DNA of 60,000 nucleotides from Bolinopsis microptera (Eukaryota; Ctenophora; Tentaculata; Lobata; Bolinopsidae): NCBI RefSeq assembly GCF_026151205.1, contig NC_087076.1, positions 1,561,692 through 1,621,691 on the forward strand, written 5' to 3'. Below the pieces are notes generated by a model. It was given only the letters and a program-made list of their open reading frames with translations, did no database searches and was not told where the DNA came from. The translations under genes were made by a program, and so were the position numbers. This document shows, piece by piece, positions 4,250 to 46,363 of the stretch; the stretch's first letter is position 1; each line of letters starts with the position of its first letter.

Positions 4250-5856
4250 AAATGAAGTATTTATATCCCGCTCATGTGATTTACCAACAACACCAAAAAA
4301 AAGTAAACCATGTCAGAGCGGCTGACTGTGACTGATGTGAGAAAATGTGTAAATGTGAAAAAAAACTCAAAAGTATAACTCATTATAAGGCAAAGACAAA
4401 ATTAAAACATCTTTTATTGTTTAACCATACAATATATTATGTAGGTATGACAAAGGTTAGTACAGTTACATAATCAACCAAAAAGAAACAGATCCTAGAA
4501 AGGTTGAGATCAAGACATAAAATGGAGTGCGGAAAAAATGAAAGCCCAGGTGTCTGAAGACAAATGGAAAAGAAAATATATTATTATTATGTTGAAAGGG
4601 AGAATCAGCAGATTTCTCCAAGTTTAAATTTGTTAATCAGCGCATCTTGTATTAGTCAGGTACGTGTTCTTATTTCTTTTAATTTAGCATTTATATTAGT
4701 ATTTGGTATTAGGCTAGTTAAATTTAATGATAAGGATTTCCGCGGGTAAAGTTTTATTTTAGCTTATCTCTATTTACACGCGTTTTGTTGTAAATATCGG
4801 TTTAAGCGAGCTTATCTATTATCTAGATAAGAGCTGTCCGCTCATGTTTGCACTTAACTGGCAGAGTGGCCTGTGGTTTGTTCTTGCGACTGCAGGGTGA
4901 CTGACTAGCGGAGTGTTCATTGGCGAGACTGCTAGTCACGTGGGACAAGCAGATGCGTTGTCCCGTCACGCATTATTGCGTGGCAGGTTTGTTTGAGAGT
5001 ATACCCGATGCACGGGAGAAAAGTCGGGACTTCTTGAGCTGTTTCTAAATTTTGAAAGACCAGTGATAAATCCTATCGTGATTTAGATTCACCCGTCTAC
5101 ATTCACGCCAAACTGTTTGGAGCGGACTAAGAAGTATTTCTCGTTTGTTGTTCACATTGTATTACCCTTTTATTAATTAGCTTCTCCTTTTAATATACTT
5201 GTTTCCTTTTTATCTTTTCGATACGCCCTACCGTTCGTGTTACGTGACCAGAGCTTGAATAGTATACACTAAACCCCAGAGAACTCGCTTTTCTATAATT
5301 ATATTATATAACTTTATTCTGACCACCCTAGCCCATAATTACTGCGTCTGCATGGTTTTCAAATTACAGGTGCGTGCTGTACCATTTGTTCATATCAACG
5401 TACTGTGCTAGTTTACTGTGTCTGTACTACTGTTAACTACCGTACACAATAATGCAGCAGTAGTCGGGATATAAGGCTGTCAACTAAATCAACAATTATA
5501 ACGATTACTTTCAGTTCTCAGGTAATAGTGGTCAATGTGGGGCGAAAATTCATGGAAGCTAGGCAGGTATATTTAGTCAGACAAATACACAGTATATTTA
5601 GCGTTTTACGTTTGTAATGACGATACATGGAACTTCTCATGAGGTTTCATGATATCTATATGATATTCATTCATGATCAACCTAGTATTTTGGTACTTAT
5701 CACTGCAGTAACACGTGACATTCCTCCGTATAAGTATAACCGTGAGAGATTGGGGAGATAAGATTATCTAACCAACAAGGTATTTTATAACCGTATTAGG
5801 AGATAAAAGTGCTTGGTATGATGAAACATTGCCATGAGTAGCAGTTCCTCAGCACC
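4250..5856. other. intergenic stretch before the pentraxin array; no gene recognised
   Basis: Short AT-rich frames only, with no convincing exon. Around 4800-5050 the base composition is more GC-rich, but no protein family could be seen there. The text just before 5857 differs from the text before every later array unit, so this is unique flanking DNA and probably includes the original upstream region of the pentraxin gene. Confidence 0.5.
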
Positions 5857-5960
5857 TATCCGGAATGTTTCCAATAAAGTCAAAAGTCAAAACGCGGAAA
5901 CTTATATCGTCTGACAATGTGATCGTGTTTATAAACCAGAGTATTTGTAGGAGAGCTCAC

Positions 5961-6393
5961 ATGTTGCTCACCTTATCAGTATCTCTCCTCCTCCTACTCG
6001 GAACCCTTGCCACCACCACCGCAGACTCTACCTCGCACGATGCTGGACAAAGACTGGTAGAAAGACGCTACAGAGGACTAAAGTTTGGAGCAACTGCTCA
6101 AGACTACGTTCTGTTAAAGCCAAGAATGGAACCCCTAGATGAGTCCTTCTCGGTATGTGGATGGGTGAAGAAGGTACGGCATGGTAGTAGTAAGTGGTGG
6201 TTTGCTTACGGAACCTCTAGTTATGTCGAGGAGATCTATTCAGACGATGACGGATATCTCGGGACGTTTGGCACTGTTGGGAAATAAGGTAACTGAACAA
6301 CTAGGGATATGGAGACACGTTTGCTACACGTGGAGTCCCACTACCAGAGCAGCTAGTGTGTACTTTGATGGCATCCTTCTCGGATCATCATAA
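5961..6393 (+). pseudogene. array unit 1: pentraxin N-terminal part, frame-broken
   Basis: ATG at 5961 opens a typical signal peptide (MLLTLSVSLLLLLG). The ORF could start upstream at 5865, but that stretch reads like a 5' leader. Mature sequence follows with the pentraxin pattern SFSVCGWVKK, WFAYGTSSYVEEIYSDDDG and GTFGTVGK, then TAA at 6285-6287. One base over, the frame continues with EQLGIWRHVCYTWSP and ASVYFDGILLGSS, the expected next part of a pentraxin, and stops at 6393. The HxCxTW core is the pentraxin signature, with Pro where the pattern expects Ser/Thr. The C-terminal calcium-binding part is absent. Unique to this unit are 6 extra bases in the signal peptide, Pro at the second leader codon (MFPIK instead of MFLIK) and unique DNA upstream, so it is the left edge of the array. 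Confidence 0.8.
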
Positions 6394-6598
6394 CCCCCTC
6401 TGGTAAGGGGATGACTTGTGACGAAATACCCAATTAGAGTTAGTACAAGCCAAACACAAGGATATCTCGTGTCACAGATCATATGCACCTGTTGCAGCCA
6501 GTCGCAGACCTTGGTCGCCATAATTGAGCTCTAAGTGACGTTAAGTGACCGGTGAGCCACACTTCTTGACAATTTTTTTTAGAATAACGACCCAATCA

Positions 6599-9500
6599 TA
6601 TCCGGAATGTTTCTAATAAAGTCAAAAGTCAAAACCCGGAAACTTATATCGTCTGACAATGTGATCGTGTTTATAAACCAGAGTATTTGTAGGAGAGCTC
6701 ACATGTTGCTCACCTTATCTCTCCTCCTCCTACTCGGAACCCTTGCCACCACCACCGCAGACTCTACCTCGCACGATGCTGGACAAAGACTGGTAGAAAG
6801 ACGCTACAGAGGACTAAAGTTTGGAGCAACTGCTCAAGACTACGTTCTGTTAAAGCCAAGAATGGAACCCCTAGATGAGTCCTTCTCGGTATGTGGATGG
6901 GTGAAGAAGGTACGGCATGGTAGTAGTAAGTGGTGGTTTGCTTACGGAACCTCTAGTTATGTCGAGGAGATCTATTCAGACGATGACGGATATCTCGGGA
7001 CGTTTGGCACTGTTGGGAAATAAGGTAACTGAACAACTAGGGATATGGAGACACGTTTGCTACACGTGGAGTCCCACTACCAGAGCAGCTAGTGTGTACT
7101 TTGATGGCATCCTTCTCGGATCATCATAACCCCCTCTGGTAAGGGGATGACTTGTGACGAAATACCCAATTAGAGTTAGTACAAGCCAAACACAAGGATA
7201 TCTCGTGTCACAGATCATATGCACCTGTTGCAGCCAGTCGCAGACCTTGGTCGCCATAATTGAGCTCTAAGTGACGTTAAGTGACCGGTGAGCCACACTT
7301 CTTGACAATTTTTTTTAGAATAACGACCCAATCATATCCGGAATGTTTCTAATAAAGTCAAAAGTCAAAACCCGGAAACTTATATCGTCTGACAATGTGA
7401 TCGTGTTTATAAACCAGAGTATTTGTAGGAGAGCTCACATGTTGCTCACCTTATCTCTCCTCCTCCTACTCGGAACCCTTGCCACCACCACCGCAGACTC
7501 TACCTCGCACGATGCTGGACAAAGACTGGTAGAAAGACGCTACAGAGGACTAAAGTTTGGAGCAACTGCTCAAGACTACGTTCTGTTAAAGCCAAGAATG
7601 GAACCCCTAGATGAGTCCTTCTCGGTATGTGGATGGGTGAAGAAGGTACGGCATGGTAGTAGTAAGTGGTGGTTTGCTTACGGAACCTCTAGTTATGTCG
7701 AGGAGATCTATTCAGACGATGACGGATATCTCGGGACGTTTGGCACTGTTGGGAAATAAGGTAACTGAACAACTAGGGATATGGAGACACGTTTGCTACA
7801 CGTGGAGTCCCACTACCAGAGCAGCTAGTGTGTACTTTGATGGCATCCTTCTCGGATCATCATAACCCCCTCTGGTAAGGGGATGACTTGTGACGAAATA
7901 CCCAATTAGAGTTAGTACAAGCCAAACACAAGGATATCTCGTGTCACAGATCATATGCACCTGTTGCAGCCAGTCGCAGACCTTGGTCGCCATAATTGAG
8001 CTCTAAGTGACGTTAAGTGACCGGTGAGCCACACTTCTTGACAATTTTTTTTAGAATAACGACCCAATCATATCCGGAATGTTTCTAATAAAGTCAAAAG
8101 TCAAAACCCGGAAACTTATATCGTCTGACAATGTGATCGTGTTTATAAACCAGAGTATTTGTAGGAGAGCTCACATGTTGCTCACCTTATCTCTCCTCCT
8201 CCTACTCGGAACCCTTGCCACCACCACCGCAGACTCTACCTCGCACGATGCTGGACAAAGACTGGTAGAAAGACGCTACAGAGGACTAAAGTTTGGAGCA
8301 ACTGCTCAAGACTACGTTCTGTTAAAGCCAAGAATGGAACCCCTAGATGAGTCCTTCTCGGTATGTGGATGGGTGAAGAAGGTACGGCATGGTAGTAGTA
8401 AGTGGTGGTTTGCTTACGGAACCTCTAGTTATGTCGAGGAGATCTATTCAGACGATGACGGATATCTCGGGACGTTTGGCACTGTTGGGAAATAAGGTAA
8501 CTGAACAACTAGGGATATGGAGACACGTTTGCTACACGTGGAGTCCCACTACCAGAGCAGCTAGTGTGTACTTTGATGGCATCCTTCTCGGATCATCATA
8601 ACCCCCTCTGGTAAGGGGATGACTTGTGACGAAATACCCAATTAGAGTTAGTACAAGCCAAACACAAGGATATCTCGTGTCACAGATCATATGCACCTGT
8701 TGCAGCCAGTCGCAGACCTTGGTCGCCATAATTGAGCTCTAAGTGACGTTAAGTGACCGGTGAGCCACACTTCTTGACAATTTTTTTTAGAATAACGACC
8801 CAATCATATCCGGAATGTTTCTAATAAAGTCAAAAGTCAAAACCCGGAAACTTATATCGTCTGACAATGTGATCGTGTTTATAAACCAGAGTATTTGTAG
8901 GAGAGCTCACATGTTGCTCACCTTATCTCTCCTCCTCCTACTCGGAACCCTTGCCACCACCACCGCAGACTCTACCTCGCACGATGCTGGACAAAGACTG
9001 GTAGAAAGACGCTACAGAGGACTAAAGTTTGGAGCAACTGCTCAAGACTACGTTCTGTTAAAGCCAAGAATGGAACCCCTAGATGAGTCCTTCTCGGTAT
9101 GTGGATGGGTGAAGAAGGTACGGCATGGTAGTAGTAAGTGGTGGTTTGCTTACGGAACCTCTAGTTATGTCGAGGAGATCTATTCAGACGATGACGGATA
9201 TCTCGGGACGTTTGGCACTGTTGGGAAATAAGGTAACTGAACAACTAGGGATATGGAGACACGTTTGCTACACGTGGAGTCCCACTACCAGAGCAGCTAG
9301 TGTGTACTTTGATGGCATCCTTCTCGGATCATCATAACCCCCTCTGGTAAGGGGATGACTTGTGACGAAATACCCAATTAGAGTTAGTACAAGCCAAACA
9401 CAAGGATATCTCGTGTCACAGATCATATGCACCTGTTGCAGCCAGTCGCAGACCTTGGTCGCCATAATTGAGCTCTAAGTGACGTTAAGTGACCGGTGAG

Positions 9501-11014
9501 CCACACTTCTTGACAATTTTTTTTAGAATAACGACCCAATCATATCCGGAATGTTTCTAATAAAGTCAAAAGTCAAAACCCGGAAACTTATATCGTCTGA
9601 CAATGTGATCGTGTTTATAAACCAGAGTATTTGTAGGAGAGCTCACATGTTGCTCACCTTATCTCTCCTCCTCCTACTCGGAACCCTTGCCACCACCACC
9701 GCAGACTCTACCTCGCACGATGCTGGACAAAGACTGGTAGAAAGACGCTACAGAGGACTAAAGTTTGGAGCAACTGCTCAAGACTACGTTCTGTTAAAGC
9801 CAAGAATGGAACCCCTAGATGAGTCCTTCTCGGTATGTGGATGGGTGAAGAAGGTACGGCATGGTAGTAGTAAGTGGTGGTTTGCTTACGGAACCTCTAG
9901 TTATGTCGAGGAGATCTATTCAGACGATGACGGATATCTCGGGACGTTTGGCACTGTTGGGAAATAAGGTAACTGAACAACTAGGGATATGGAGACACGT
10001 TTGCTACACGTGGAGTCCCACTACCAGAGCAGCTAGTGTGTACTTTGATGGCATCCTTCTCGGATCATCATAACCCCCTCTGGTAAGGGGATGACTTGTG
10101 ACGAAATACCCAATTAGAGTTAGTACAAGCCAAACACAAGGATATCTCGTGTCACAGATCATATGCACCTGTTGCAGCCAGTCGCAGACCTTGGTCGCCA
10201 TAATTGAGCTCTAAGTGACGTTAAGTGACCGGTGAGCCACACTTCTTGACAATTTTTTTTAGAATAACGACCCAATCATATCCGGAATGTTTCTAATAAA
10301 GTCAAAAGTCAAAACCCGGAAACTTATATCGTCTGACAATGTGATCGTGTTTATAAACCAGAGTATTTGTAGGAGAGCTCACATGTTGCTCACCTTATCT
10401 CTCCTCCTCCTACTCGGAACCCTTGCCACCACCACCGCAGACTCTACCTCGCACGATGCTGGACAAAGACTGGTAGAAAGACGCTACAGAGGACTAAAGT
10501 TTGGAGCAACTGCTCAAGACTACGTTCTGTTAAAGCCAAGAATGGAACCCCTAGATGAGTCCTTCTCGGTATGTGGATGGGTGAAGAAGGTACGGCATGG
10601 TAGTAGTAAGTGGTGGTTTGCTTACGGAACCTCTAGTTATGTCGAGGAGATCTATTCAGACGATGACGGATATCTCGGGACGTTTGGCACTGTTGGGAAA
10701 TAAGGTAACTGAACAACTAGGGATATGGAGACACGTTTGCTACACGTGGAGTCCCACTACCAGAGCAGCTAGTGTGTACTTTGATGGCATCCTTCTCGGA
10801 TCATCATAACCCCCTCTGGTAAGGGGATGACTTGTGACGAAATACCCAATTAGAGTTAGTACAAGCCAAACACAAGGATATCTCGTGTCACAGATCATAT
10901 GCACCTGTTGCAGCCAGTCGCAGACCTTGGTCGCCATAATTGAGCTCTAAGTGACGTTAAGTGACCGGTGAGCCACACTTCTTGACAATTTTTTTTAGAA
11001 TAACGACCCAATCA
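6599..11014 (+). pseudogene. array units 2-7: identical pentraxin partial copies
   Basis: Six 736-bp units appear identical to the eye. Each encodes a signal peptide and N-terminal pentraxin segment from an ATG 104 bp into the unit (6703 in unit 2), with the first frame ending after GTVGK and the second frame ending GILLGSS. A TATA-like tttataaa lies 33 bp before each ATG (6670-6677 in unit 2). If translated, a unit would give a secreted peptide of about 106 residues before signal cleavage, with one of the two pentraxin disulfide cysteines. The spacer (7139-7318 in unit 2) has donor-like gtaagg and acceptor-like tttttttag ends. Whether units are transcribed cannot be told from sequence. Confidence 0.8.
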
Positions 11015-14000
11015 TATCCGGAATGTTTCTAATAAAGTCAAAAGTCAAAACCCGGAAACTTATATCGTCTGACAATGTGATCGTGTTTATAAACCAGAGT
11101 ATTTGTAGGAGAGCTCACATGTTGCTCACCTTATCTCTCCTCCTCCTACTCGGAACCCTTGCCACCACCACCGCAGACTCTACCTCGCACGATGCTGGAC
11201 AAAGACTGGTAGAAAGACGCTACAGAGGACTAAAGTTTGGAGCAACTGCTCAAGACTACGTTCTGTTAAAGCCAAGAATGGAACCCCTAGATGAGTCCTT
11301 CTCGGTATGTGGATGGGGTGAAGAAGGTACGGCATGGTAGTAGTAAGTGGTGGTTTGCTTACGGAACCTCTAGTTATGTCGAGGAGATCTATTCAGACGA
11401 TGACGGATATCTCGGGACGTTTGGCACTGTTGGGAAATAAGGTAACTGAACAACTAGGGATATGGAGACACGTTTGCTACACGTGGAGTCCCACTACCAG
11501 AGCAGCTAGTGTGTACTTTGATGGCATCCTTCTCGGATCATCATAACCCCCTCTGGTAAGGGGATGACTTGTGACGAAATACCCAATTAGAGTTAGTACA
11601 AGCCAAACACAAGGATATCTCGTGTCACAGATCATATGCACCTGTTGCAGCCAGTCGCAGACCTTGGTCGCCATAATTGAGCTCTAAGTGACGTTAAGTG
11701 ACCGGTGAGCCACACTTCTTGACAATTTTTTTTAGAATAACGACCCAATCATATCCGGAATGTTTCTAATAAAGTCAAAAGTCAAAACCCGGAAACTTAT
11801 ATCGTCTGACAATGTGATCGTGTTTATAAACCAGAGTATTTGTAGGAGAGCTCACATGTTGCTCACCTTATCTCTCCTCCTCCTACTCGGAACCCTTGCC
11901 ACCACCACCGCAGACTCTACCTCGCACGATGCTGGACAAAGACTGGTAGAAAGACGCTACAGAGGACTAAAGTTTGGAGCAACTGCTCAAGACTACGTTC
12001 TGTTAAAGCCAAGAATGGAACCCCTAGATGAGTCCTTCTCGGTATGTGGATGGGTGAAGAAGGTACGGCATGGTAGTAGTAAAGTGGTGGTTTGCTTACG
12101 GAACCTCTAGTTATGTCGAGGAGATCTATTCAGACGATGACGGATATCTCGGGACGTTTGGCACTGTTGGGAAATAAGGTAACTGAACAACTAGGGATAT
12201 GGAGACACGTTTGCTACACGTGGAGTCCCACTACCAGAGCAGCTAGTGTGTACTTTGATGGCATCCTTCTCGGATCATCATAACCCCCTCTGGTAAGGGG
12301 ATGACTTGTGACGAAATACCCAATTAGAGTTAGTACAAGCCAAACACAAGGATATCTCGTGTCACAGATCATATGCACCTGTTGCAGCCAGTCGCAGACC
12401 TTGGTCGCCATAATTGAGCTCTAAGTGACGTTAAGTGACCGGTGAGCCACACTTCTTGACAATTTTTTTTAGAATAACGACCCAATCATATCCGGAATGT
12501 TTCTAATAAAGTCAAAAGTCAAAACCCGGAAACTTATATCGTCTGACAATGTGATCGTGTTTATAAACCAGAGTATTTGTAGGAGAGCTCACATGTTGCT
12601 CACCTTATCTCTCCTCCTCCTACTCGGAACCCTTGCCACCCACCACCGCAGACTCTACCTCGCACGATGCTGGACAAAGACTGGTAGAAAGACGCTACAG
12701 AGGACTAAAGTTTGGAGCAACTGCTCAAGACTACGTTCTGTTAAAGCCAAGAATGGAACCCCTAGATGAGTCCTTCTCGGTATGTGGATGGGTGAAGAAG
12801 GTACGGCATGGTAGTAGTAAGTGGTGGTTTGCTTACGGAACCTCTAGTTATGTCGAGGAGATCTATTCAGACGATGACGGATATCTCGGGACGTTTGGCA
12901 CTGTTGGGAAATAAGGTAACTGAACAAACTAGGGATATGGAGACACGTTTGCTACACGTGGAGTCCCACTACCAGAGCAGCTAGTGTGTACTTTGATGGC
13001 ATCCTTCTCGGATCATCATAACCCCCTCTGGTAAGGGGATGACTTGTGACGAAATACCCAATTAGAGTTAGTACAAGCCAAACACAAGGATATCTCGTGT
13101 CACAGATCATATGCACCTGTTGCAGCCAGTCGCAGACCTTGGTCGCCATAATTGAGCTCTAAGTGACGTTAAGTGACCGGTGAGCCACACTTCTTGACAA
13201 TTTTTTTTAGAATAACGACCCAATCATATCCGGAATGTTTCTAATAAAGTCAAAAGTCAAAACCCGGAAACTTATATCGTCTGACAATGTGATCGTGTTT
13301 ATAACCAGAGTATTTGTAGGAGAGCTCACATGTTGCTCACCTTATCTCTCCTCCTCCTACTCGGAACCCTTGCCACCACCACCGCAGACTCTACCTCGCA
13401 CGATGCTGGACAAAGACTGGTAGAAAGACGCTACAGAGACTAAAGTTTGGGAGCAACTGCTCAAGACTACGTTCTGTTAAAGCCAAGAATGGAACCCCTA
13501 GATGAGTCCTTCTCGGTATGTGGATGGGTGAAGAAGGTACGGCATGGTAGTAGTAAGTGGTGGTTTGCTTACGGAACCTCTAGTTATGTCGAGGAGATCT
13601 ATTCAGACGATGACGGATATCTCGGGACGTTTGGCACTGTTGGGAAATAAGGTAACTGAACAACTAGGGATATGGAGACACGTTTGCTACACGTGGAGTC
13701 CCACTACCAGAGCAGCTAGTGTGTACTTTGATGGCATCCTTCTCGGATCATCATAACCCCCTCTGGTAAGGGGATGACTTGTGACGAAATACCCAATTAG
13801 AGTTAGTACAAGCCAAACACAAGGATATCTCGTGTCACAGATCATATGCACCTGTTGCAGCCAGTCGCAGACCTTGGTCGCCATAATTGAGCTCTAAGTG
13901 ACGTTAAGTGACCGGTGAGCCACACTTCTTGACAATTTTTTTTAGAATAACGACCCAATCATATCCGGAATGTTTCTAATAAAGTCAAAAGTCAAAACCC

Positions 14001-17000
14001 GGAAACTTATATCGTCTGACAATGTGATCGTGTTTATAAACCAGAGTATTTGTAGGAGAGCTCACATGTTGCTCACCTTATCTCTCCTCCTCCTACTCGG
14101 AACCCTTGCCACCACCACCGCAGACTCTACCTCGCACGATGCTGGACAAAGACTGGTAGAAAGACGCTACAGAGGACTAAAGTTTGGAGCAACTGCTCAA
14201 GACTACGTTCTGTTAAAGCCAAGAATGGAACCCCTAGATGAGTCCTTCTCGGTATGTGGATGGGTGAAGAAGGTACGGCATGGTAGTAGTAAGTGGTGGT
14301 TTGCTTACGGAACCTCTAGTTATGTCGAGGAGATCTATTCAGACGATGACGGATATCTCGGGACGTTTGGCACTGTTGGGAAATAAGGTAACTGAACAAC
14401 TAGGGATATGGAGACACGTTTGCTACACGTGGAGTCCCACTACCAGAGCAGCTAGTGTGTACTTTGATGGCATCCTTCTCGGATCATCATAACCCCCTCT
14501 GGTAAGGGGATGACTTGTGACGAAATACCCAATTAGAGTTAGTACAAGCCAAACACAAGGATATCTCGTGTCACAGATCATATGCACCTGTTGCAGCCAG
14601 TCGCAGACCTTGGTCGCCATAATTGAGCTCTAAGTGACGTTAAGTGACCGGTGAGCCACACTTCTTGACAATTTTTTTTAGAATAACGACCCAATCATAT
14701 CCGGAATGTTTCTAATAAAGTCAAAAGTCAAAACCCGGAAACTTATATCGTCTGACAATGTGATCGTGTTTATAAACCAGAGTATTTGTAGGAGAGCTCA
14801 CATGTTGCTCACCTTATCTCTCCTCCTCCTACTCGGAACCCTTGCCACCACCACCGCAGACTCTACCTCGCACGATGCTGGACAAAGACTGGTAGAAAGA
14901 CGCTACAGAGGACTAAAGTTTGGAGCAACTGCTCAAGACTACGTTCTGTTAAAGCCAAGAATGGAACCCCTAGATGAGTCCTTCTCGGTATGTGGATGGG
15001 TGAAGAAGGTACGGCATGGTAGTAGTAAGTGGTGGTTTGCTTACGGAACCTCTAGTTATGTCGAGGAGATCTATTCAGACGATGACGGATATCTCGGGAC
15101 GTTTGGCACTGTTGGGAAATAAGGTAACTGAACAACTAGGGATATGGAGACACGTTTGCTACACGTGGAGTCCCACTACCAGAGCAGCTAGTGTGTACTT
15201 TGATGGCATCCTTCTCGGATCATCATAACCCCCTCTGGTAAGGGGATGACTTGTGACGAAATACCCAATTAGAGTTAGTACAAGCCAAACACAAGGATAT
15301 CTCGTGTCACAGATCATATGCACCTGTTGCAGCCAGTCGCAGACCTTGGTCGCCATAATTGAGCTCTAAGTGACGTTAAGTGACCGGTGAGCCACACTTC
15401 TTGACAATTTTTTTTAGAATAACGACCCAATCATATCCGGAATGTTTCTAATAAAGTCAAAAGTCAAAACCCGGAAACTTATATCGTCTGACAATGTGAT
15501 CGTGTTTATAAACCAGAGTATTTGTAGGAGAGCTCACATGTTGCTCACCTTATCTTTCCTCCTCCTACTCGGAACCCTTGCCACACCACCGCAGACTCTA
15601 CCTCGGACGATGCTGGACAAAGACTGGTAGAAAGACGCTACAGAGGACTAAAGTTTGGAGCAACTGCTCAAGACTACGTTCTGTTAAAGCCAAGAATGGA
15701 ACCCCTAGATGAGTCCTTCTCGGTATGTGGATGGGTGAAGAAGGTACGGCATGGTAGTAGTAAGTGGTGGTTTGCTTACGGAACCTCTAGTTATGTCGAG
15801 GAGATCTATTCAGACGATGACGGATATCTCGGGACGTTTGGCACTGTTGGGAAATAAGGTAACTGAACAACTAGGGATATGGAGACACGTTTGCTACACG
15901 TGGAGTCCCACTACCAGAGCAGCTAGTGTGTACTTTGATGGCATCCTTCTCGGATCATCATAACCCCCTCTGGTAAGGGGATGACTTGTGACGAAATACC
16001 CAATTAGAGTTAGTACAAGCCAAACACAAGGATATCTCGTGTCACAGATCATATGCACCTGTTGCAGCCAGTCGCAGACCTTGGTCGCCATAATTGAGCT
16101 CTAAGTGACGTTAAGTGACCGGTGAGCCACACTTCTTGACAATTTTTTTTAGAATAACGACCCAATCATATCCGGAATGTTTCTAATAAAGTCAAAAGTC
16201 AAAAACCCGGAAACTTATATCGTCTGACAATGTGATCGTGTTTATAAACCAGAGTATTTGTAGGAGAGCTCACATGTTGCTCACCTTATCTCTCCTCCTC
16301 CTACTCGGAACCCTTGCCACCACCACCGCAGACTCTACCTCGCACGATGCTGGACAAAGACTGGTAGAAAGACGCTACAGAGGACTAAAGTTTGGAGCAA
16401 CTGCTCAAGACTACGTTCTGTTAAAGCCAAGAATGGAACCCCTAGATGAGTCCTTCTCGGTATGTGGATGGGTGAAGAAGGTACGGCATGGTAGTAGTAA
16501 GTGGTGGTTTGCTTACGGAACCTCTAGTTATGTCGAGGAGATCTATTCAGACGATGACGGATATCTCGGGACGTTTGGCACTGTTGGGAAATAAGGTAAC
16601 TGAACAACTAGGGATATGGAGACACGTTTGCTACACGTGGAGTCCCACTACCAGAGCAGCTAGTGTGTACTTTGATGGCATCCTTCTCGGATCATCATAA
16701 CCCCCTCTGGTAAGGGGATGACTTGTGACGAAATACCCAATTAGAGTTAGTACAAGCCAAACACAAGGATATCTCGTGTCACAGATCATATGCACCTGTT
16801 GCAGCCAGTCGCAGACCTTGGTCGCCATAATTGAGCTCTAAGTGACGTTAAGTGACCGGTGAGCCACACTTCTTGACAATTTTTTTTAGAATAACGACCC
16901 AATCATATCCGGAATGTTTCTAATAAAGTCAAAAGTCAAAACCCGGAAACTTATATCGTCTGACAATGTGATCGTGTTTATAAACCAGAGTATTTGTAGG

Positions 17001-18376
17001 AGAGCTCACATGTTGCTCACCTTATCTCTCCTCCTCCTACTCGGAACCCTTGCCACCACCACCGCAGACTCTACCTCGCACGATGCTGGACAAAGACTGG
17101 TAGAAAGACGCTACAGAGGACTAAAGTTTGGAGCAACTGCTCAAGACTACGTTCTGTTAAAGCCAAGAATGGAACCCCTAGATGAGTCCTTCTCGGTATG
17201 TGGATGGGTGAAGAAGGTACGGCATGGTAGTAGTAAGTGGTGGTTTGCTTACGGAACCTCTAGTTATGTCGAGGAGATCTATTCAGACGATGACGGATAT
17301 CTCGGGACGTTTGGCACTGTTGGGAAATAAGGTAACTGAACAACTAGGGATATGGAGACACGTTTGCTACACGTGGAGTCCACTACCAGAGCAGCTAGTG
17401 TGTACTTTGATGGCATCCTTCTCGGATCATCATAACCCCCTCTGGTAAGGGGATGACTTGTGACGAAATACCCAATTAGAGTTAGTACAAGCCAAACACA
17501 AGGATATCTCGTGTCACAGATCATATGCACCTGTTGCAGCCAGTCGCAGACCTTGGTCGCCATAATTGAGCTCTAAGTGACGTTAAGTGACCGGTGAGCC
17601 ACACTTCTTGACAATTTTTTTTAGAATAACGACCCAATCATATCCGGAATGTTTCTAATAAAGTCAAAAGTCAAAACCCGGAAACTTATATCGTCTGACA
17701 ATGTGATCGTGTTTATAAACCAGAGTATTTGTAGGAGAGCTCACATGTTGCTCACCTTATCTCTCCTCCTCCTACTCGGAACCCTTGCCACCACCACCGC
17801 AGACTCTACCTCGCACGATGCTGGACAAAGACTGGTAGAAAGACGCTACAGAGGACTAAAGTTTGGAGCAACTGCTCAAGACTACGTTCTGTTAAAGCCA
17901 AGAATGGAACCCCTAGATGAGTCCTTCTCGGTATGTGGATGGGTGAAGAAGGTACGGCATGGTAGTAGTAAGTGGTGGTTTGCTTACGGAACCTCTAGTT
18001 ATGTCGAGGAGATCTATTCAGACGATGACGGATATCTCGGGACGTTTGGCACTGTTGGGAAATAAGGTAACTGAACAACTAGGGATATGGAGACACGTTT
18101 GCTACACGTGGAGTCCCACTACCAGAGCAGCTAGTGTGTACTTTGATGGCATCCTTCTCGGATCATCATAACCCCCTCTGGTAAGGGGATGACTTGTGAC
18201 GAAATACCCAATTAGAGTTAGTACAAGCCAAACACAAGGATATCTCGTGTCACAGATCATATGCACCTGTTGCAGCCAGTCGCAGACCTTGGTCGCCATA
18301 ATTGAGCTCTAAGTGACGTTAAGTGACCGGTGAGCCACACTTCTTGACAATTTTTTTTAGAATATACGACCCAATC
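11015..18376 (+). pseudogene. array units 8-17: pentraxin partial copies with scattered single-base indels
   Basis: Same unit as to the left, but private indels now appear. Unit 8 has an extra G near 11313 and unit 9 an extra A near 12082. Unit 10 has extra bases near 12640 and 12928. Unit 11 has losses near 13303 and 13438 and a gain near 13450. Unit 14 has a loss and substitutions near 15555-15606. Unit 15 has an extra A near 16204 and unit 16 a lost C near 17381. Units 12, 13 and 17 have intact consensus coding parts. Most changes are homopolymer-length errors, which suggests consensus error rather than decay. Confidence 0.75.
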
Positions 18377-23316
<4,940 letters not shown>

Positions 23317-26300
23317 TATCCGGAATGTTTCTAATAAAGTCAAAAGTCAAAACCCGGAAACTTATATCGTCTGACAATGTGATCGTGTTTATAAACCAGA
23401 GTATTTGTAGGAGAGCTCACATGTTGCTCACCTTATCTCTCCTCCTCCTACTCGGAACCCTTGCCACCACCACCGCAGACTCTACCTCGCACGATGCTGG
23501 ACAAAGACTGGTAGAAAGACGCTACAGAGGACTAAAGTTTGGAGCAACTGCTCAAGACTACGTTCTGTTAAAGCCAAGAATGGAACCCCTAGATGAGTCC
23601 TTCTCGGTATGTGGATGGGTGAAGAAGGTACGGCATGGTAGTAGTAAGTGGTGGTTTGCTTACGGAACCTCTAGTTATGTCGAGGAGATCTATTCAGACG
23701 ATGACGGATATCTCGGGACGTTTGGCACTGTTGGGAAATAAGGTAACTGAACAACTAGGGATATGGAGACACGTTTGCTACACGTGGAGTCCCACTACCA
23801 GAGCAGCTAGTGTGTACTTTGATGGCATCCTTCTCGGATCATCATAACCCCCTCTGGTAAGGGGATGACTTGTGACGAAATACCCAATTAGAGTTAGTAC
23901 AAGCCAAACACAAGGATATCTCGTGTCACAGATCATATGCACCTGTTGCAGCCAGTCGCAGACCTTGGTCGCCATAATTGAGCTCTAAGTGACGTTAAGT
24001 GACCGGTGAGCCACACTTCTTGACAATTTTTTTTAGAATAACGACCCAATCATATCCGGAATGTTTCTAATAAAGTCAAAAGTCAAAACCCGGAAACTTA
24101 TATCGTCTGACAATGTGATCGTGTTTATAAACCAGAGTATTTGTAGGAGAGCTCACATGTTGCTCACCTTATCTCTCCTCCTCCTACTCGGAACCCTTGC
24201 CACCACCACCGCAGACTCTACCTCGCACGATGCTGGACAAAGACTGGTAGAAAGACGCTACAGAGGACTAAAGTTTGGAGCAACTGCTCAAGACTACGTT
24301 CTGTTAAAGCCAAGAATGGAACCCCTAGATGAGTCCTTCTCGGTATGTGGATGGGTGAAGAAGGTACGGCATGGTAGTAGTAAGTGGTGGTTTGCTTACG
24401 GAACCTCTAGTTATGTCGAGGAGATCTATTCAGACGATGACGGATATCTCGGGACGTTTGGCACTGTTGGGAAATAAGGTAACTGAACAACTAGGGATAT
24501 GGAGACACGTTTGCTACACGTGGAGTCCCACTACCAGAGCAGCTAGTGTGTACTTTGATGGCATCCTTCTCGGATCATCATAACCCCCTCTGGTAAGGGG
24601 ATGACTTGTGACGAAATACCCAATTAGAGTTAGTACAAGCCAAACACAAGGATATCTCGTGTCACAGATCATATGCACCTGTTGCAGCCAGTCGCAGACC
24701 TTGGTCGCCATAATTGAGCTCTAAGTGACGTTAAGTGACCGGTGAGCCACACTTCTTGACAATTTTTTTTAGAATAACGACCCAATCATATCCGGAATGT
24801 TTCTAATAAAGTCAAAAGTCAAAACCCGGAAACTTATATCGTCTGACAATGTGATCGTGTTTATAAACCAGAGTATTTGTAGGAGAGCTCACATGTTGCT
24901 CACCTTATCTCTCCTCCTCCTACTCGGAACCCTTGCCACCACCACCGCAGACTCTACCTCGCACGATGCTGGACAAAGACTGGTAGAAAGACGCTACAGA
25001 GGACTAAAGTTTGGAGCAACTGCTCAAGACTACGTTCTGTTAAAGCCAAGAATGGAACCCCTAGATGAGTCCTTCTCGGTATGTGGATGGGTGAAGAAGG
25101 TACGGCATGGTAGTAGTAAGTGGTGGTTTGCTTACGGAACCTCTAGTTATGTCGAGGAGATCTATTCAGACGATGACGGATATCTCGGGACGTTTGGCAC
25201 TGTTGGGAAATAAGGTAACTGAACAACTAGGGATATGGAGACACGTTTGCTACACGTGGAGTCCCACTACCAGAGCAGCTAGTGTGTACTTTGATGGCAT
25301 CCTTCTCGGATCATCATAACCCCCTCTGGTAAGGGGATGACTTGTGACGAAATACCCAATTAGAGTTAGTACAAGCCAAACACAAGGATATCTCGTGTCA
25401 CAGATCATATGCACCTGTTGCAGCCAGTCGCAGACCTTGGTCGCCATAATTGAGCTCTAAGTGACGTTAAGTGACCGGTGAGCCACACTTCTTGACAATT
25501 TTTTTTAGAATAACGACCCAATCATATCCGGAATGTTTCTAATAAAGTCAAAAGTCAAAACCCGGAAACTTATATCGTCTGACAATGTGATCGTGTTTAT
25601 AAACCAGAGTATTTGTAGGAGAGCTCACATGTTGCTCACCTTATCTCTCCTCCTCCTACTCGGAACCCTTGCCACCACCACCGCAGACTCTACCTCGCAC
25701 GATGCTGGACAAAGACTGGTAGAAAGACGCTACAGAGGACTAAAGTTTGGAGCAACTGCTCAAGACTACGTTCTGTTAAAGCCAAGAATGGAACCCCTAG
25801 ATGAGTCCTTCTCGGTATGTGGATGGGTGAAGAAGGTACGGCATGGTAGTAGTAAGTGGTGGTTTGCTTACGGAACCTCTAGTTATGTCGAGGAGATCTA
25901 TTCAGACGATGACGGATATCTCGGGACGTTTGGCACTGTTGGGAAATAAGGTAACTGAACAACTAGGGATATGGAGACACGTTTGCTACACGTGGAGTCC
26001 CACTACCAGAGCAGCTAGTGTGTACTTTGATGGCATCCTTCTCGGATCATCATAACCCCCTCTGGTAAGGGGATGACTTGTGACGAAATACCCAATTAGA
26101 GTTAGTACAAGCCAAACACAAGGATATCTCGTGTCACAGATCATATGCACCTGTTGCAGCCAGTCGCAGACCTTGGTCGCCATAATTGAGCTCTAAGTGA
26201 CGTTAAGTGACCGGTGAGCCACACTTCTTGACAATTTTTTTTAGAATAACGACCCAATCATATCCGGAATGTTTCTAATAAAGTCAAAAGTCAAAACCCG

Positions 26301-28467
26301 GAAACTTATATCGTCTGACAATGTGATCGTGTTTATAAACCAGAGTATTTGTAGGAGAGCTCACATGTTGCTCACCTTATCTCTCCTCCTCCTACTCGGA
26401 ACCCTTGCCACCACCACCGCAGACTCTACCTCGCACGATGCTGGACAAAGACTGGTAGAAAGACGCTACAGAGGACTAAAGTTTGGAGCAACTGCTCAAG
26501 ACTACGTTCTGTTAAAGCCAAGAATGGAACCCCTAGATGAGTCCTTCTCGGTATGTGGATGGGTGAAGAAGGTACGGCATGGTAGTAGTAAGTGGTGGTT
26601 TGCTTACGGAACCTCTAGTTATGTCGAGGAGATCTATTCAGACGATGACGGATATCTCGGGACGTTTGGCACTGTTGGGAAATAAGGTAACTGAACAACT
26701 AGGGATATGGAGACACGTTTGCTACACGTGGAGTCCCACTACCAGAGCAGCTAGTGTGTACTTTGATGGCATCCTTCTCGGATCATCATAACCCCCTCTG
26801 GTAAGGGGATGACTTGTGACGAAATACCCAATTAGAGTTAGTACAAGCCAAACACAAGGATATCTCGTGTCACAGATCATATGCACCTGTTGCAGCCAGT
26901 CGCAGACCTTGGTCGCCATAATTGAGCTCTAAGTGACGTTAAGTGACCGGTGAGCCACACTTCTTGACAATTTTTTTTAGAATAACGACCCAATCATATC
27001 CGGAATGTTTCTAATAAAGTCAAAAGTCAAAACCCGGAAACTTATATCGTCTGACAATGTGATCGTGTTTATAAACCAGAGTATTTGTAGGAGAGCTCAC
27101 ATGTTGCTCACCTTATCTCTCCTCCTCCTACTCGGAACCCTTGCCACCACCACCGCAGACTCTACCTCGCACGATGCTGGACAAAGACTGGTAGAAAGAC
27201 GCTACAGAGGACTAAAGTTTGGAGCAACTGCTCAAGACTACGTTCTGTTAAAGCCAAGAATGGAACCCCTAGATGAGTCCTTCTCGGTATGTGGATGGGT
27301 GAAGAAGGTACGGCATGGTAGTAGTAAGTGGTGGTTTGCTTACGGAACCTCTAGTTATGTCGAGGAGATCTATTCAGACGATGACGGATATCTCGGGACG
27401 TTTGGCACTGTTGGGAAATAAGGTAACTGAACAACTAGGGATATGGAGACACGTTTGCTACACGTGGAGTCCCACTACCAGAGCAGCTAGTGTGTACTTT
27501 GATGGCATCCTTCTCGGATCATCATAACCCCCTCTGGTAAGGGGATGACTTGTGACGAAATACCCAATTAGAGTTAGTACAAGCCAAACACAAGGATATC
27601 TCGTGTCACAGATCATATGCACCTGTTGCAGCCAGTCGCAGACCTTGGTCGCCATAATTGAGCTCTAAGTGACGTTAAGTGACCGGTGAGCCACACTTCT
27701 TGACAATTTTTTTAGAATAACGACCCAATCATATCCGGAATGTTTCTAATAAAGTCAAAAGTCAAAACCCGGAAACTTATATCGTCTGACAATGTGATCG
27801 TGTTTATAAACCAGAGTATTTGTAGGAGAGCTCACATGTTGCTCACCTTATCTCTCCTCCTCCTACTCGGAACCCTTGCCACCACCACCGCAGACTCTAC
27901 CTCGCACGATGCTGGACAAAGACTGGTAGAAAGACGCTACAGAGGACTAAAGTTTGGAGCAACTGCTCAAGACTACGTTCTGTTAAAGCCAAGAATGGAA
28001 CCCCTAGATGAGTCCTTCTCGGTATGTGGATGGGTGAAGAAGGTACGGCATGGTAGTAGTAAGTGGTGGTTTGCTTACGGAACCTCTAGTTATGTCGAGG
28101 AGATCTATTCAGACGATGACGGATATCTCGGGACGTTTGGCACTGTTGGGAAATAAGGTAACTGAACAACTAGGGATATGGAGACACGTTTGCTACACGT
28201 GGAGTCCCACTACCAGAGCAGCTAGTGTGTACTTTGATGGCATCCTTCTCGGATCATCATAACCCCCTCTGGTAAGGGGATGACTTGTGACGAAATACCC
28301 AATTAGAGTTAGTACAAGCCAAACACAAGGATATCTCGTGTCACAGATCATATGCACCTGTTGCAGCCAGTCGCAGACCTTGGTCGCCATAATTGAGCTC
28401 TAAGTGACGTTAAGTGACCGGTGAGCCACACTTCTTGACAATTTTTTTTAGAATAACGACCCAATCA
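23317..28467 (+). pseudogene. array units right of the block: seven near-identical pentraxin partial copies
   Basis: Units start at 23317, 24053, 24789, 25525, 26261, 26997 and 27732. By eye they match units 2-7 exactly, except for one T fewer in the T-run near 27708. All carry the same +1 break after GTVGK and the same second-frame segment through GILLGSS. The cleanliness here contrasts with the left side of the block. Confidence 0.8.
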
Positions 28468-28571
28468 TATCCGGAATGTTTCTAATAAAGTCAAAAGTCA
28501 AAACCCGGAAACTTATATCGTCTGACAATGTGATCGTGTTTATAAACCAGAGTATTTGTAGGAGAGCTCAC

Positions 28572-29411
28572 ATGTTGCTCACCTTATCTCTCCTCCTCCT
28601 ACTCGGAACCCTTGCCACCACCACCGCAGACTCTACCTCGCACGATGCTGGACAAAGACTGGTAGAAAGACGCTACAGAGGACTAAAGTTTGGAGCAACT
28701 GCTCAAGACTACGTTCTGTTAAAGCCAAGAATGGAACCCCTAGATGAGTCCTTCTCGGTATGTGGATGGGTGAAGAAGGTACGGCATGGTAGTAGTAAGT
28801 GGTGGTTTGCTTACGGAACCTCTAGTTATGTCGAGGAGATCTATTCAGACGATGACGGATATCTCGGGACGTTTGGCACTGTTGGGAAATAAGGTAACTG
28901 AACAACTAGGGATATGGAGACACGTTTGCTACACGTGGAGTCCCACTACCAGAGCAGCTAGTGTGTACTTTGATGGCATCCTTCTCGGATCATCATAACC
29001 CCCTCTGGTAAGAAGCTTAGGTTGGACGGGTATATGGTTCTGGAGAACGAGTTCGACTCTTATGGGGGTGGGTTTGAAGATAGAAATGCTTTTGGTGGAG
29101 AGCTCTTTAAGGTAAATGTATTTGACAAAGAACTCAAAGCAGCTGAAGTTAAGAAAATGACGGACGCCGGAAAATGTTCTGACGTAGAGGAAAAGTATGG
29201 ACGAAGTAGATACCTGAAATGGGAATACTTGTTACTCGAGGAGAAGTCAGGTAACGTTAGTGAGATTGACGTAGGTTGCACCCCGGAACTAACAGAAGAA
29301 AATGGAGAAGAACCAACGGAGGAAAATGGAGGAGAAGAAACAAACAGTACAGAGAAATGTGAATGTGAGCAGGGGGACGGAACAGGGTTCAGCCGCTGGG
29401 ATCTGCTTTGA
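28572..29411 (+). CDS. secreted pentraxin, full domain in last array unit, with two frame breaks
   Basis: ATG 28572 opens the signal peptide (MLLTLSLLLLLGTLATTTA). The pentraxin fold follows in three frame segments. Frame one has SFSVCGWVKK and WFAYGTSSYVEEIYSDDDG to GTVGK (TAA 28890-28892). One base over come EQLGIWRHVCYTWSP and ASVYFDGILLGSS (stop 28998). Back in frame one come TPSGKKLRLDGYMVLENEFD, SYGGGFEDRNAFGGELF and KVNVFDKELKAAEV. The last part matches the pentraxin calcium site (CRP ~138-150): Glu, Asp and Glu are kept, but the two Gln are Phe and Asn. YLKWEYLLLEEKSGNV matches the final strands, and a Glu-rich tail with CECEQ ends at 29411. Pentraxins are secreted calcium-dependent ligand-binding oligomers. 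Either the consensus has two errors or this copy is frame-broken. There is no poly(A) signal at the usual place. Confidence 0.82.
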
Positions 29412-30330
29412 GGGGACAAGTTCTTTGACAAAACGGTCTCCGTTGAGCTGGTTGCAGCTAACAGCTCCACATTTCACTGTTGAACTACTTGAACAATAAC
29501 AAAGAGATTTTTACTTTAATTGAATTGATCTGATAACATCGTTGATATTTAGCCTTATAGTTATATCATTACAATCTTAATCAATGTATTTTAGTTATTT
29601 TTATCTTAGTAGGTACTGTACTGCGTCATCACTTTTTATCATACAGGCTAGTAACATTTCTCCATCCCTTTCGATCTGCAGCTGATCTTCAAATATTCAT
29701 ACAATCAATCCACAATCAAGAGTCCATTCAATCGTGATTACTATTAGAAAAATATGTTAAATTTTGGCTATTTTCCCCTAATAAAAATTGGTTGATTATC
29801 GCGATAATTCTTGAAAATTATCGCGATAATCGATAACGATTTTGGGTAAATTATCGGTAGGCAAGTATGGACCCGTTGCATTGGGCCAACCCTAGTGCCG
29901 AACCACAAACCACGACACACGAACGTGGGGCCGGGCCAGATCGACCGATCGACTAGACGCGACTGGCAATGCAGCGCGCGCGGGATCTTAAACAAATGAT
30001 GATCATATATGAGCCTAAGCGCGTTACAAACACAGAAATTTGAATTATGGCAAATTTGATCCAAAATATCGCAAAAGTTCCGGAATTTCATCGATAAATA
30101 ATACTGTTCGGAGAAGACTACCCAGAGAAGGCCTTGTATTGTATATTGTTTATGGTTCCTAAAACCTAGTTATCAGCTGGAATGATCACACATTGAATTG
30201 GAAATTTACCTTCAATAAACAGGTAAGTTTACCTAAACAGGTAACGAACTGTGTTTTATTGAGAGAAGGTTTACCAATACAGCCTCTGATAGAGCCTCAT
30301 CGCTCAGGATATACTGACATAGTGCATAAT
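29412..30330. other. intergenic DNA with 14-bp palindromes and a GC-rich island
   Basis: No gene seen. At about 29796-29834 the palindrome attatcgcgataat occurs twice, spaced by cttgaaa. It is followed by a ~130-bp GC-rich patch (29870-29995) in otherwise AT-rich DNA, with gatcgaccgatcg and gcgcgcgcg. This could be the end of a transposon copy, but no matching second end was found. Confidence 0.4.
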
Positions 30331-30339
30331 ATGTATCAT

Positions 30340-30760
30340 TATTAGGCTTGGGCGTCATGCCACAAGAAGAAGATGATATGGAAGTCCGGTAATGGTAGAG
30401 ATCTCAAGGTATTATTCCAGGCTACAGTCGAGTCCATCCTTCTATGTGGCTCTGAACCATGGACTATCAGCCAGACCCTCGCAAAGCGTATAAATGGTTG
30501 TTATACAAAAATGCTGAGGATGGCACTGAACATAAACTGGACAGAGCGGCCAACTAACGCCAAAGTGTATTGACACTTTAGAGCATCCGTCATCTCGCCA
30601 GACATGACGAACTTTTGACCCATCAGTGATCAGCTTCTCGTCTGGGAATCCTTTCGCAGATCACCCAATCAAGAAGTTCGGAGTCCATGAACCATCCCAC
30701 GACAATGTCTAAAACTCAGAGAACAAGCCACTTTATTACGAGTATATAGATTTGAATATT
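30340..30760 (+). mobile_element. non-LTR retrotransposon remnant (reverse-transcriptase C-terminal region)
   Basis: The frame ending at 30573 reads LKVLFQATVESILLCGSEPW, then TISQTLAKRINGCYTKMLRMALN. This is the well-known stretch after the RT domain of animal LINE-like elements (ATVESVLLYG-E-WTL...L-GCYTRMLR). The frame stops at 30571-30573. The following ~190 bp continue the same region in shifted frames, so the copy is truncated and dead. Confidence 0.75.
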
Positions 30761-30775
30761 GCTATTAGCTTATTA

Positions 30776-30838
30776 GGTCTCTCGTAGTGGTAGAGCTTAG
30801 CACTTACCCGGGATTGTGTTTGAAACCTGTCGGCGGAT
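30776..30838 (+). other. tRNA-like patch, possible SINE head or tRNA pseudogene
   Basis: gtagtggtagagc resembles a D-arm/A-box and tgtttgaaacc a T-arm/B-box at roughly tRNA spacing. A convincing anticodon arm and matching acceptor stem are not visible, so it is not called a tRNA. Confidence 0.25.
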
Positions 30839-31176
30839 GTTTTTTTTGGCAATTATAAATTACTTAACTACAGTGATCAGTAGGGCACCTTAATAATGCA
30901 CTGTTTGTTACCAGTTTATTTAAGGTAAACTTTCAATCAATATGTGTAATCATTTGATTTCATCTGTTATCCGGTTTACAGGAACCTTGTATTAATTTAA
31001 CAAAACAAACATTTCCAGATAACTCCGTTTACTATTTAACATGTCTCTGTGTGAACGAGGCCTTCTCCGGACAAGACCTTGGATTGGATCCAATTTGTTC
31101 GCGACATAATTACAATTCTGAGAATAAACCTCCCCCGACATACTTACAATTTCCTCTATGGCACGGCCAGACGAAC

Positions 31177-31523
31177 TCATTATAGGCTCATTATAGGCTC
31201 ATTATAGGCTCATTATAGGCTCATTATAGGCTCATTATAGGCTCATTATAGGCTCATTATAGACTCATTATAGGCTCATTATAGGCTCATTATAGGCTCA
31301 TTATAGGCTCATTATAGGCTCATTATAGGCTCATTATAGGCTCATTATAGGCTCATTATAGGCTCATTATAGACTCATTATAGGCTCATTATAGGCTCAT
31401 TATAGGCTCATTATAGGCTCATTATAGACTCATTATAGGCTCATTATAGGCTCATTATAGACTCATTATAGGCTCATTATAGACTCATTATAGGCTCATT
31501 ATAGACTCATTATAGACTCATTA
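31177..31523. repeat. 11-bp tandem repeat (ctcattatagg), about 31 copies
   Basis: The unit cattataggct repeats head to tail with one recurring variant (cattatagact) that becomes more frequent at the right end. The array is about 350 bp long and has no coding content. Confidence 0.95.
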
Positions 31524-34116
31524 GTCATTATAGACTTAACTCAAGTGAACCCTATACTACAGCATCTCGTGATATAAGAATGATAGTTGAGACATAATAT
31601 TTTTAAATTTTGAGCAAATCCCGTGTTTTGTAAAGAGTTCTTAAACCACTAGAGAAGTAAATATGATATCGAGAACGTTGGTAATGACGGGGTCTCTTCA
31701 ACCCACTGATCAAGAAACTGGGGTTTGACTGGTAGATTTATCTCGCTGTCGCTTTTCATTCCCAATAGGATTTAATAATAACAGGGAAACTACAAAATAA
31801 CTTATAATACCCCACTCTGACATATCAATTGTATTCAGCTTGATCCAGAAAACATTGTAGGTCAGCAATCAGGGTGCAATCAGAATTTTAACAGAATTGG
31901 TTGAACGCTAATATCTACGTCGAGAGATTATACTAACTTGTTCTTGTGGGTAACTGTTTTTCAGGGGTGGGGGTGTTTTTGCAAGAATCCATCAAGCTAT
32001 TATTCAGAGTCTATAATTGTACTATGAGACAACTTATGATCCGGTGTGTTTTAAACTTGCTGGGTAAAATTATTTTTTTAAAGTTGATTTCTTCACTCTA
32101 TTTACTGCACAAGCACCTTAATTGATAGAAGATTTATAAAAAACAGAAGCAGCTGCATAATAACGAGCTCTTACAAGCAGCAATAGGGGGGGGGGTCCAG
32201 CGAGAGGGGGGCCGGGGGGGGTCCAGCGCGAATCCAATTAAACCATTTATATTGAACAGAGTAAGAGACAGCTATTATATAACGAAAAAATATCTCATAA
32301 TCAATATTGGATAGGTTTTGTATTTAAATAGTCGGCAAGTTCATAAATTTTCTATGCAATCGTGCAGAAGCCAGAAACTCTCGTTGTGGGAAATTTGATT
32401 AATTGCAATATAACTGTTGAAAGCAATAACATATGAAATCATTTAATTTGACAGGCAAAATGTGGTGGCCGCATTTTAAACGATCAGGTTAAAATCGCTA
32501 TAACAACATTGACAGTTTTCGCTAAAGAGTTCTATTGACTTATACAGTTAAAGTATCATGATATAGCAAAAAAGATCCCAAGATATTGAAATTTATTAAA
32601 ACAGCTTATTAAAAGTCTGGCCATAAAATGTCAAATTCGAAGAACTCGTACAAAATTCCTGAAAAGTAACCAATTTTATGGTTGATAACTGAGCATTTCT
32701 GGGAAGATATTTAAACTAACTGCATGCCATTAAATGATCGTAATTCGTATGTGGCGTGTAACATTTGCTACTCGAAAGCGAGTGACAGAAAGCAAGAAGC
32801 TACAAAACCCTCTTTTCCTCGACAATCCACAGCTTCCCACCAGTCAGAATTAACCTGCTCTTTTATCAGCACCATCTGTCCTCTTTTCAAACTTAACAGA
32901 TTCTGAGGATGGAGGAGTATTGTATCGTGTCAGGTCACTACTACTACACGTGTCAGGTCACGTGTCAGGTCACGTGTCAGATCACTACTACTACTACATA
33001 ACTACACGTGTATTGTTGCATATCAGATTTATATCCCAATTATACTTCGACGCATGTAATGTGAAATGAAATTTGTCGCAATAAATTGTTGGCTAAAATA
33101 TGGCTCACTTTGCCCGGAAGAACTGTTTGGCTGAGGTTGAAGCTCCATTCAGTCTGGTACACCTGCTGGTAGCTAAACTCGCCCCAGCAACTTGGCACAT
33201 CTTCTTCAAGCACCTTCATCATATCTTCCTCCTGGCGAAGTTTAGCATTAATTTTAGCAGTCAAAATGTTACTGTTTACATTTTTTTCAAAGATAATACT
33301 AAATTGCAATCTCAGACTACTGTATGTGATTTTTTTGGTCCAACGGTAAACATTTCTGAAACTACTTTTAAACTTGACTTAGTCTCCCCGGCAACAGAAT
33401 AAAAACACAACAAATTTACCAAAAAGTGACCCTTCGCTGAAGAATATTTCCGCTCGCTAATGGGGCTGAAACTCGCGATTTTTAGCAGGGTTACAGCATT
33501 TTTAGAATTTTCATTGAAGTAAAGTTTTTAAATAACGTCGGAAGTGAGGGAAACTATACGTTAGAATAAGAGTGCAGCTTCAGGTAAGTTTTACTGCGAC
33601 GTTACTTAGCAGTTAGTATAAACAGCTTTCGACTAGCGGGTTTCTTGTACATTATAACGACACATAAGTTCTAAATTGAGGACCCTAATATGGTTATATT
33701 AGTGACAGGTCGTCACATTTAATAAAACAAGAGCTGAGCCATGGCCGCATTGTACTGTGAGATCAGAATTTGACTAAGAAAGGTATGCGACACCAGGGTT
33801 ATCCCACTAAAAATGTACTTATAGTATTTTGATCGGACAACAACAATAACTACTATTAGTTTTCAACAATAACTTCTACCACCACCTCTATTAGTTCTCA
33901 ACAATAACTACTACCACCACCTCTATTAGTTCTCAACTCAGTTTGATTAACGACATATACCACTCTCCACATATTATCCCTGTCCCAGAATCAGTACCTC
34001 TTGAGAATGTATTGTTTTTGTAAATTAGAGCTTTAAACATTACGGTTACTTATAAATCAAGAGGCTTGCATATATAATGAACATATATTATGGCAGACGA
34101 ATTAAATTGTCTACCT
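31524..34116. other. intergenic region: G-rich motifs and short tandem repeats
   Basis: No complete gene. G runs followed by tccag occur at 32186-32230. A small cacgtgtcaggt repeat lies at 32940-32990. A 36-bp imperfect duplication (ctaccaccacctctattagttctcaac...) lies at 33865-33935. One possible exon at 33040-33309 is listed separately. The rest is AT-rich with no feature seen. Confidence 0.5.
33040..33309 (-). CDS. possible exon of the PH-domain gene with SH3-like sequence
   Basis: The minus-strand frame has higher GC in its core (about 33100-33240) than the DNA around it. It reads EEDMMKVLEEDVPSCWGEF, which resembles the SH3 pattern E-x-D-x-x-x-V-L-E-E-D...W-G-E but is diverged. The beginning of an SH3 fold (ALYDF) and a strong splice acceptor are not visible. 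It lies on the same strand as, and downstream of, the PH-domain exons, where SKAP-type proteins carry an SH3 domain. An opposite-strand frame (33100-33402) covers the same DNA and cannot be fully excluded. Confidence 0.25.
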   Translation of the reverse strand: MQFSIIFEKNVNSNILTAKINAKLRQEEDMMKVLEEDVPSCWGEFSYQQVYQTEWSFNLSQTVLPGKVSHILANNLLRQISFHITCVEV

Positions 34117-37196: not shown

Positions 37197-37325
37197 CATA
37201 CAGCTATCATACAGCTATCATACAGCTATTATACAGCTATCATACAGCTATTATACAGCTATCATATAGCTATTATACAGCTATCATATAGCTATTATAC
37301 AGCTATCATATAGCTATCATATATA
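37197..37325. repeat. 11-bp tandem repeat (catacagctat), about 11 copies
   Basis: catacagctat and tatacagctat units alternate towards the right end, then decay into catatagctat and an AT run. The period is 11 bp, the same as the unrelated array at 31177. Confidence 0.93.
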
Positions 37326-37541
37326 TAATATGTCCAGAAAGTTATGGGAGTCTCCTGTCATGTTTTAAGCAAGTTCGCTACTTCGTGTAACCGGTGACAA
37401 AACTCCAATTTCCTATATATAAGGGTTAACCTCGTCAAGTATTTAAACCCCAAATTGGAATAACGAGTACGAATACCAGAAACCACAGATTTATGTAATA
37501 CAATTATTTGATTAGGCATTATTAGGAAGGGCGGTTGGTTA

Positions 37542-45860: not shown

Positions 45861-45937
45861 GTAGCTGTACTCCTACACCATTAAAAGTCGGTGTTGATTA
45901 GATCTTCGAAATAAGTCTTTGCATCATATATATATAT

Positions 45938-46202: not shown

Positions 46203-46363
46203 AAAGTTGTAAACTGCGTTGGCCTTCGTGTAGTGGTAGAGGAAAATTCTTTACTGAGTTCCGTGAAGCTGGTAGAATTAGGATCCGTATTTGAGAGTTA
46301 ATTGTTGATTCTGGTTATCAAACGAGAGTGCTCAACAACGACGAGTCGAAGGAGCATAACTAA

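Follow-up and report, generated by a model that had tools for sequence, protein, structure and literature searches.

A tandem array of a 736-base unit containing the 5' part of a pentraxin pseudogene in Bolinopsis microptera

Gene- or repeat-derived satellite-type arrays are composed of near-identical units set head to tail and are thought to be expanded by unequal exchange. The array dealt with here lies in the window, a 60,000-base stretch of Bolinopsis microptera DNA (C5:1561692-1621691 of a genome of 264,652,675 bases in 232 contigs, over which the genome-wide searches were run), and is likewise made up of near-identical head-to-tail units of several hundred bases, derived in part from a dispersed repeat; in contrast to such arrays it is found at one locus, holds tens of units and is placed inside its parent pseudogene, with both flanks of the gene retained. 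Its origin belongs to a known kind of event. Among titles and abstract openings of papers on satellites derived from genes, on partial duplication and on artefacts of gap filling, none describing this array was found, which cannot show that it is undescribed; in the main text of the ctenophore paper PMC11797021, the words "pentraxin" and "pentaxin" had 0 occurrences.

Architecture of the array and its composite unit

A start-codon anchor was found 27 times in the window scan (5945 to 28556), 19 times to the left and 8 times to the right of a T/C block, with an anchor-to-anchor spacing of 735–742 bases within each side. About 27 nearly identical units of 736 bases had been reported between 5857 and 29012 in the preliminary description, and this count agrees with the start-bearing units obtained (27; 19 left and 8 right). 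Six units at 6687 to 10367 are identical across 736 bases; on the right side seven full unit lengths were compared, of which six are without difference and one carries a single deletion. The self-match at period 736 was 1.00 over 6600-11000; controls gave 0.24 (period 737), 0.26 (one shuffle) and 0.27 (flank 30000-45000), and chance as the source of the periodicity is therefore excluded. Head-to-tail order and near-identity far above chance place the locus among satellite-type arrays.

The unit was found to be composite: approximately 545 bases of pentraxin sequence (A) are followed by 190 bases (B) from a dispersed repeat. The period of the 736-bp unit described earlier stands, with the correction that 190 of the 736 bases (B) are not pentraxin. 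Exact junctions were counted as follows: A|B, 26; B|A, 25; the plain gene junction from A into the C-terminal part (C), 1. The architecture is (A-B)n-A-C, and the join to the C-terminal part was rightly ascribed to the last unit alone.

All features are given on the + strand. The array is preceded by a unique 5' flank (5666..5856), collinear with the upstream region of the pentraxin paralogue L059 (C11:5577000-5582500); over 5666-6387 the match to L059 is 85%. The first A unit (5857..6407) differs from the others by a 6-base insertion and two substitutions close to its left edge. It is followed by GGG (6408..6410), a filler between A and B that is absent from the paralogues L059-L061 and from the displayed flanks of B elsewhere, and by the first B piece (6411..6600), 190 bases from inside the dispersed repeat, the final TA of which can also be read as the first two bases of the next A. 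The left part of the array (6601..19895) holds units 2-19, after which one more A copy is present as a short stub that ends at the left edge of the block; differences are present from about 11.1 kb on and are densest beside the block. The right part (22742..28469) begins at the right edge of the block with one truncated copy (663 bases to the next anchor, with 6 differences in these 663 bases) and continues with seven full A-B units to the last B. The last A unit (28470..29012) runs without B into C (29013..29411), the frame of which is closed by TGA where L059, L060 and L061 have CGA.

The source of B was traced by genome searches with the unit and with a phase-shifted 321-base junction piece; the repeat counts from these searches refer to the best candidates listed and are not totals. 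B is a sharply bounded 190-base match at many unrelated genome sites (about 83–98%). Among the best 40 of 240 candidates for the junction piece, 27 were full or near-full matches, all in this array, and 13 were matches elsewhere to B only. The B loci read numbered 22 (L039-L058, L068, L069), with 35 B copies and flanks displayed for up to three copies per locus. To the right of B, AGGT and A-rich sequence were found in 20 of the 22 loci (in L045 after 7 bases), the exceptions being L053, which has a variant, and L041, which matches the first 113 bases of B only; to the left, CGC was found in 19 of the 22, L042, L043 and L069 being different. Since the flanks of B recur at most of the other loci, B in the array is a cut-out from inside a longer repeat; its joins to pentraxin sequence are the GGG filler on one side and the 2-base overlap (TA) on the other. 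Direct repeats of 266–1385 bases stand on both sides of the dispersed repeat in 11 of the 22 loci; five pairs with displayed ends measure about 360–570 bases, and those of L051 are 99.7% alike over 366 bases.

More than one B copy in a row, as in the pentraxin array, was found in the tandem arrays of L039 (4 copies), L040 (7), L041 (2, partial) and L044 (2). In L039, L040 and L044, unlike in the pentraxin array, B retains the flanks of its own longer repeat; L041 carries no more than the first 113 bases. From the n+1 pattern in L039, B had been suggested to be a mobile element that duplicates its target, giving A-B-A everywhere; this candidate was dropped, the flanks at the 22 loci showing an inner piece of a longer repeat.

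The homopolymer block and the reality of the array

The block (19896..22741) had been mentioned earlier as a sequence block between the halves of the array; its content was found to be 1770 T followed by 1076 C. The pattern T40C40 occurs at five genome sites on two strands, the one in the window included, and the reversed pattern used as control at two; such blocks therefore occur in either order. Three of the four other T40C40 sites were read (the remaining one is on C85): two, L071 and L073, lie inside tandem arrays of 434 and about 280–330 bases, and L070 lies inside a purine-rich simple stretch. Left of the block, differences from the clean unit increase on approach to it: of the 18 units from 6687 on, the six outermost have none, the ten that follow between 0 and 4 each, and the two nearest the block 9 and 29. 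Over these 18 units the number of differences correlates at −0.67 (P 0.002) with the distance from the block. Insertions and deletions account for 39 of the 52 differences. The whole pattern is as expected from thinly covered noisy long reads. The block is an assembly artefact, since such blocks recur at four other sites, two of the three read in arrays, and since the differences rise towards it.

The published Bolinopsis assembly is reported (PMC10232365) to have been built from PacBio reads by wtdbg, with HiRise used for scaffolding, TGS-GapCloser for gap filling and Pilon for polishing. If the present assembly is the same one, a poorly filled gap within the array would be the simplest reading of the block, and polishing with short reads may make the units more alike than they truly are. 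The copy number is not to be trusted, because the array is interrupted by the homopolymer block. The presence of long homopolymer blocks inside tandem arrays means that copy counts and gene predictions from this assembly could mislead.

The array is known from the sequence of one assembly, and the question arises of whether it is mostly an assembly artefact, that is, whether one or a few A-B units at the true locus were multiplied by the assembler or the gap filler. A homopolymer block of 2846 bases at the centre, the increase of differences towards it and the tools behind the probable source assembly (PMC10232365) speak for such multiplication; it is nevertheless considered unlikely, given that the two halves are tied to different unique flanks in the order predicted by the paralogues, that the A|B and B|A junctions stand beside clean sequence, whereby at least A-B-A must exist, that no more than 4 differences are found in 16 of the 18 units between 6687 and the block, and that all 27 full or near-full matches to the junction piece among its best 40 candidates fall in this array. 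Since both halves are anchored in unique DNA, the existence of the array is very likely.

Pentraxin identity and loss of the reading frame

Pentraxin identity, proposed earlier from the letters of the window, was borne out by profile search: the paralogue L060 matches Pfam PF00354 with E 4.4e-18, and window 29022-29411 matches it with 25.8 bits (cut-off 25); in the genome profile search a match was obtained for window 28701-29174 (33.2 bits). The 138-residue open reading frame of a single unit gave no match in Pfam at E 0.01. In L059, L060 and L061 the match to A and C is 83–93%; over the last unit and the C part the DNA identity is 87–89%, in the same order. Collinearity with L059 extends over the left flank plus A at the first unit, and over A plus C at the last. 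The array copy differs from these paralogues in its broken frame and in the repetition of the 5' part alone, and none of the paralogues read showed an A-B unit. In L060 a single open frame covers A and C; it is 322 codons long between stops and 307 counted from the start codon. An intron and a second exon are apparently present in L060 and L061; downstream of the C part of the array these, together with the end of the long exon, are missing.

The family is large: among the best candidates genome-wide, 144 Pentaxin matches were listed, all above the cut-off and many with open frames, a figure that is not a gene count, exon pieces and double domains being counted separately. Some of the matches are clustered, e.g., at C8:12468866-12479961. 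On the reverse complement of L062, from about 3651, a 705-codon open frame resembling a non-LTR reverse transcriptase (by eye) lies between two pentraxin copies.

Compared with L060, the array copy has lost 8 bases in A, shows another deletion of a single base, and reads TGA at codon 280. Exact copies of the frameshift motif number 27 (28 in shorter form); since the units share the 8-base frameshift deletion, the gene was broken before amplification. Four stops lie inside the Pentaxin match of the array copy, the most among the 144 matches listed, and no open frame spans its whole domain. L059 has one frameshift and L061 two. The single-base frameshifts in the array, L059 and L061 could be assembly errors; the unit-wide 8-base deletion is less easily explained in this way.

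Private changes were counted over 290 codons, the counts being small: array lineage, 39 N and 11 S (N/S ratio 1.01); L061 (frame broken), 20 N and 6 S (0.95); L059 (one frameshift), 11 N and 5 S (0.63); intact L060, 11 N and 12 S (0.26). The ratio in the C part of the array lineage is 0.74. In the 93 codons ahead of the frameshift, the changes private to this lineage are 10 N and 1 S, without sign of constraint. Purifying selection on the coding sequence of the array is not seen in these small counts (1.01 vs 0.26 in L060).

These data bear on the proposal that the units are working mini-genes whose number was raised for dosage, each one encoding a secreted pentraxin fragment of 106 residues. 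In the clean units a TATA-like word stands 31 bases before the start codon, the frame opens with what looks by eye like a signal peptide and closes with a stop, and AATAAA lies shortly after the next unit begins; a frame of exactly 106 residues is present in 19 of the 27 start-bearing units (108 in the first), which agrees with the short secreted fragments of the preliminary description as far as the frame itself is concerned. The stop, however, arises from a frameshift within the pentraxin domain, the 138-residue frame of the unit finds no Pfam family at E 0.01, the changes over the 93 codons ahead of the frameshift (10 N, 1 S) give no hint of constraint, and seven frames at 11.1–19.9 kb are shorter (30–84 residues), amid scattered and probably erroneous differences; dosage amplification of working mini-genes is thus very improbable. 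A functional reading is weakened because the shared frameshift predates the array, because C has a premature stop and because the private N/S ratio is neutral. It would, with scarcely any probability, be a frame-broken pentraxin put to new use, its tens of identical mini-genes, with TATA-like word, start, signal peptide, stop and polyadenylation-type signal, giving a short secreted peptide. As judged from the sequence, no function appears to be indicated for the array, and it has no demonstrated product.

The units had also been proposed to serve as identical alternative first exons, chosen before the common 3' end and spliced onto it. Many 5' parts do stand ahead of one 3' part, and the unit contains GTAAG words, including one where A ends; in L060, however, the sequence at the end of A is coding and the open frame spans A and C with no intron at that site, so the repeated part does not meet the common part at an exon boundary. 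Since nothing interrupts the frame of L060 between A and C, the last unit is the old gene continuing and there is no choice of exons; the clean units, moreover, have their own start and stop. Alternative exon use was accordingly rejected, its probability being close to nil.

Origin of the array and further repeats in the window

The array is most probably a single pentraxin pseudogene, the 5' part of which was amplified in place by tandem duplication with insertion of filler, followed by unequal recombination. Comparison with the paralogues shows that one copy of a small pentraxin subfamily first lost its frame (8-base deletion in A; premature stop and lost end in C). From the junctions, an error of replication or break repair may then have copied the gene to 29012, taken in GGG and 190 bases of the dispersed repeat, and returned upstream at the 2-base TA overlap, giving A-B-A; unequal recombination among the A copies would have enlarged this to (A-B)n-A while keeping the units similar. 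With its two bases the TA overlap is too short to serve as proof of the mechanism; the GGG filler, absent from L059-L061 and from the displayed flanks of B elsewhere, is a further weak point.

Recent expansion or homogenisation, as suggested earlier, is supported by the high identity of the units, which on these data may stem from recent expansion, ongoing homogenisation or flattening by polishing. With amplification of the pseudogene in place as the preferred reading, the array would be a clear and probably young example of the birth of a satellite-like array, in which a piece of pseudogene and a scrap of repeat were joined at a duplication junction and multiplied where they stood.

Three further repeat features were recorded in the window. 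An 11-base minisatellite (CTCATTATAGG; about 32 copies, 96%) lies at 31176-31523. A strongly purine-rich run of 1.5 kb with imperfect GAG-type repeats occupies 38237-39801; GC skew 0.645 and AT skew 0.457 were obtained for 38001-40000. Within 45935-46951, a perfectly complementary inverted repeat of 261 bases (46363-46623/46691-46951) is overlapped by a direct repeat of 267 bases (45935-46201/46423-46689; 99%), and the whole looks like a foldback or mobile-element remnant.
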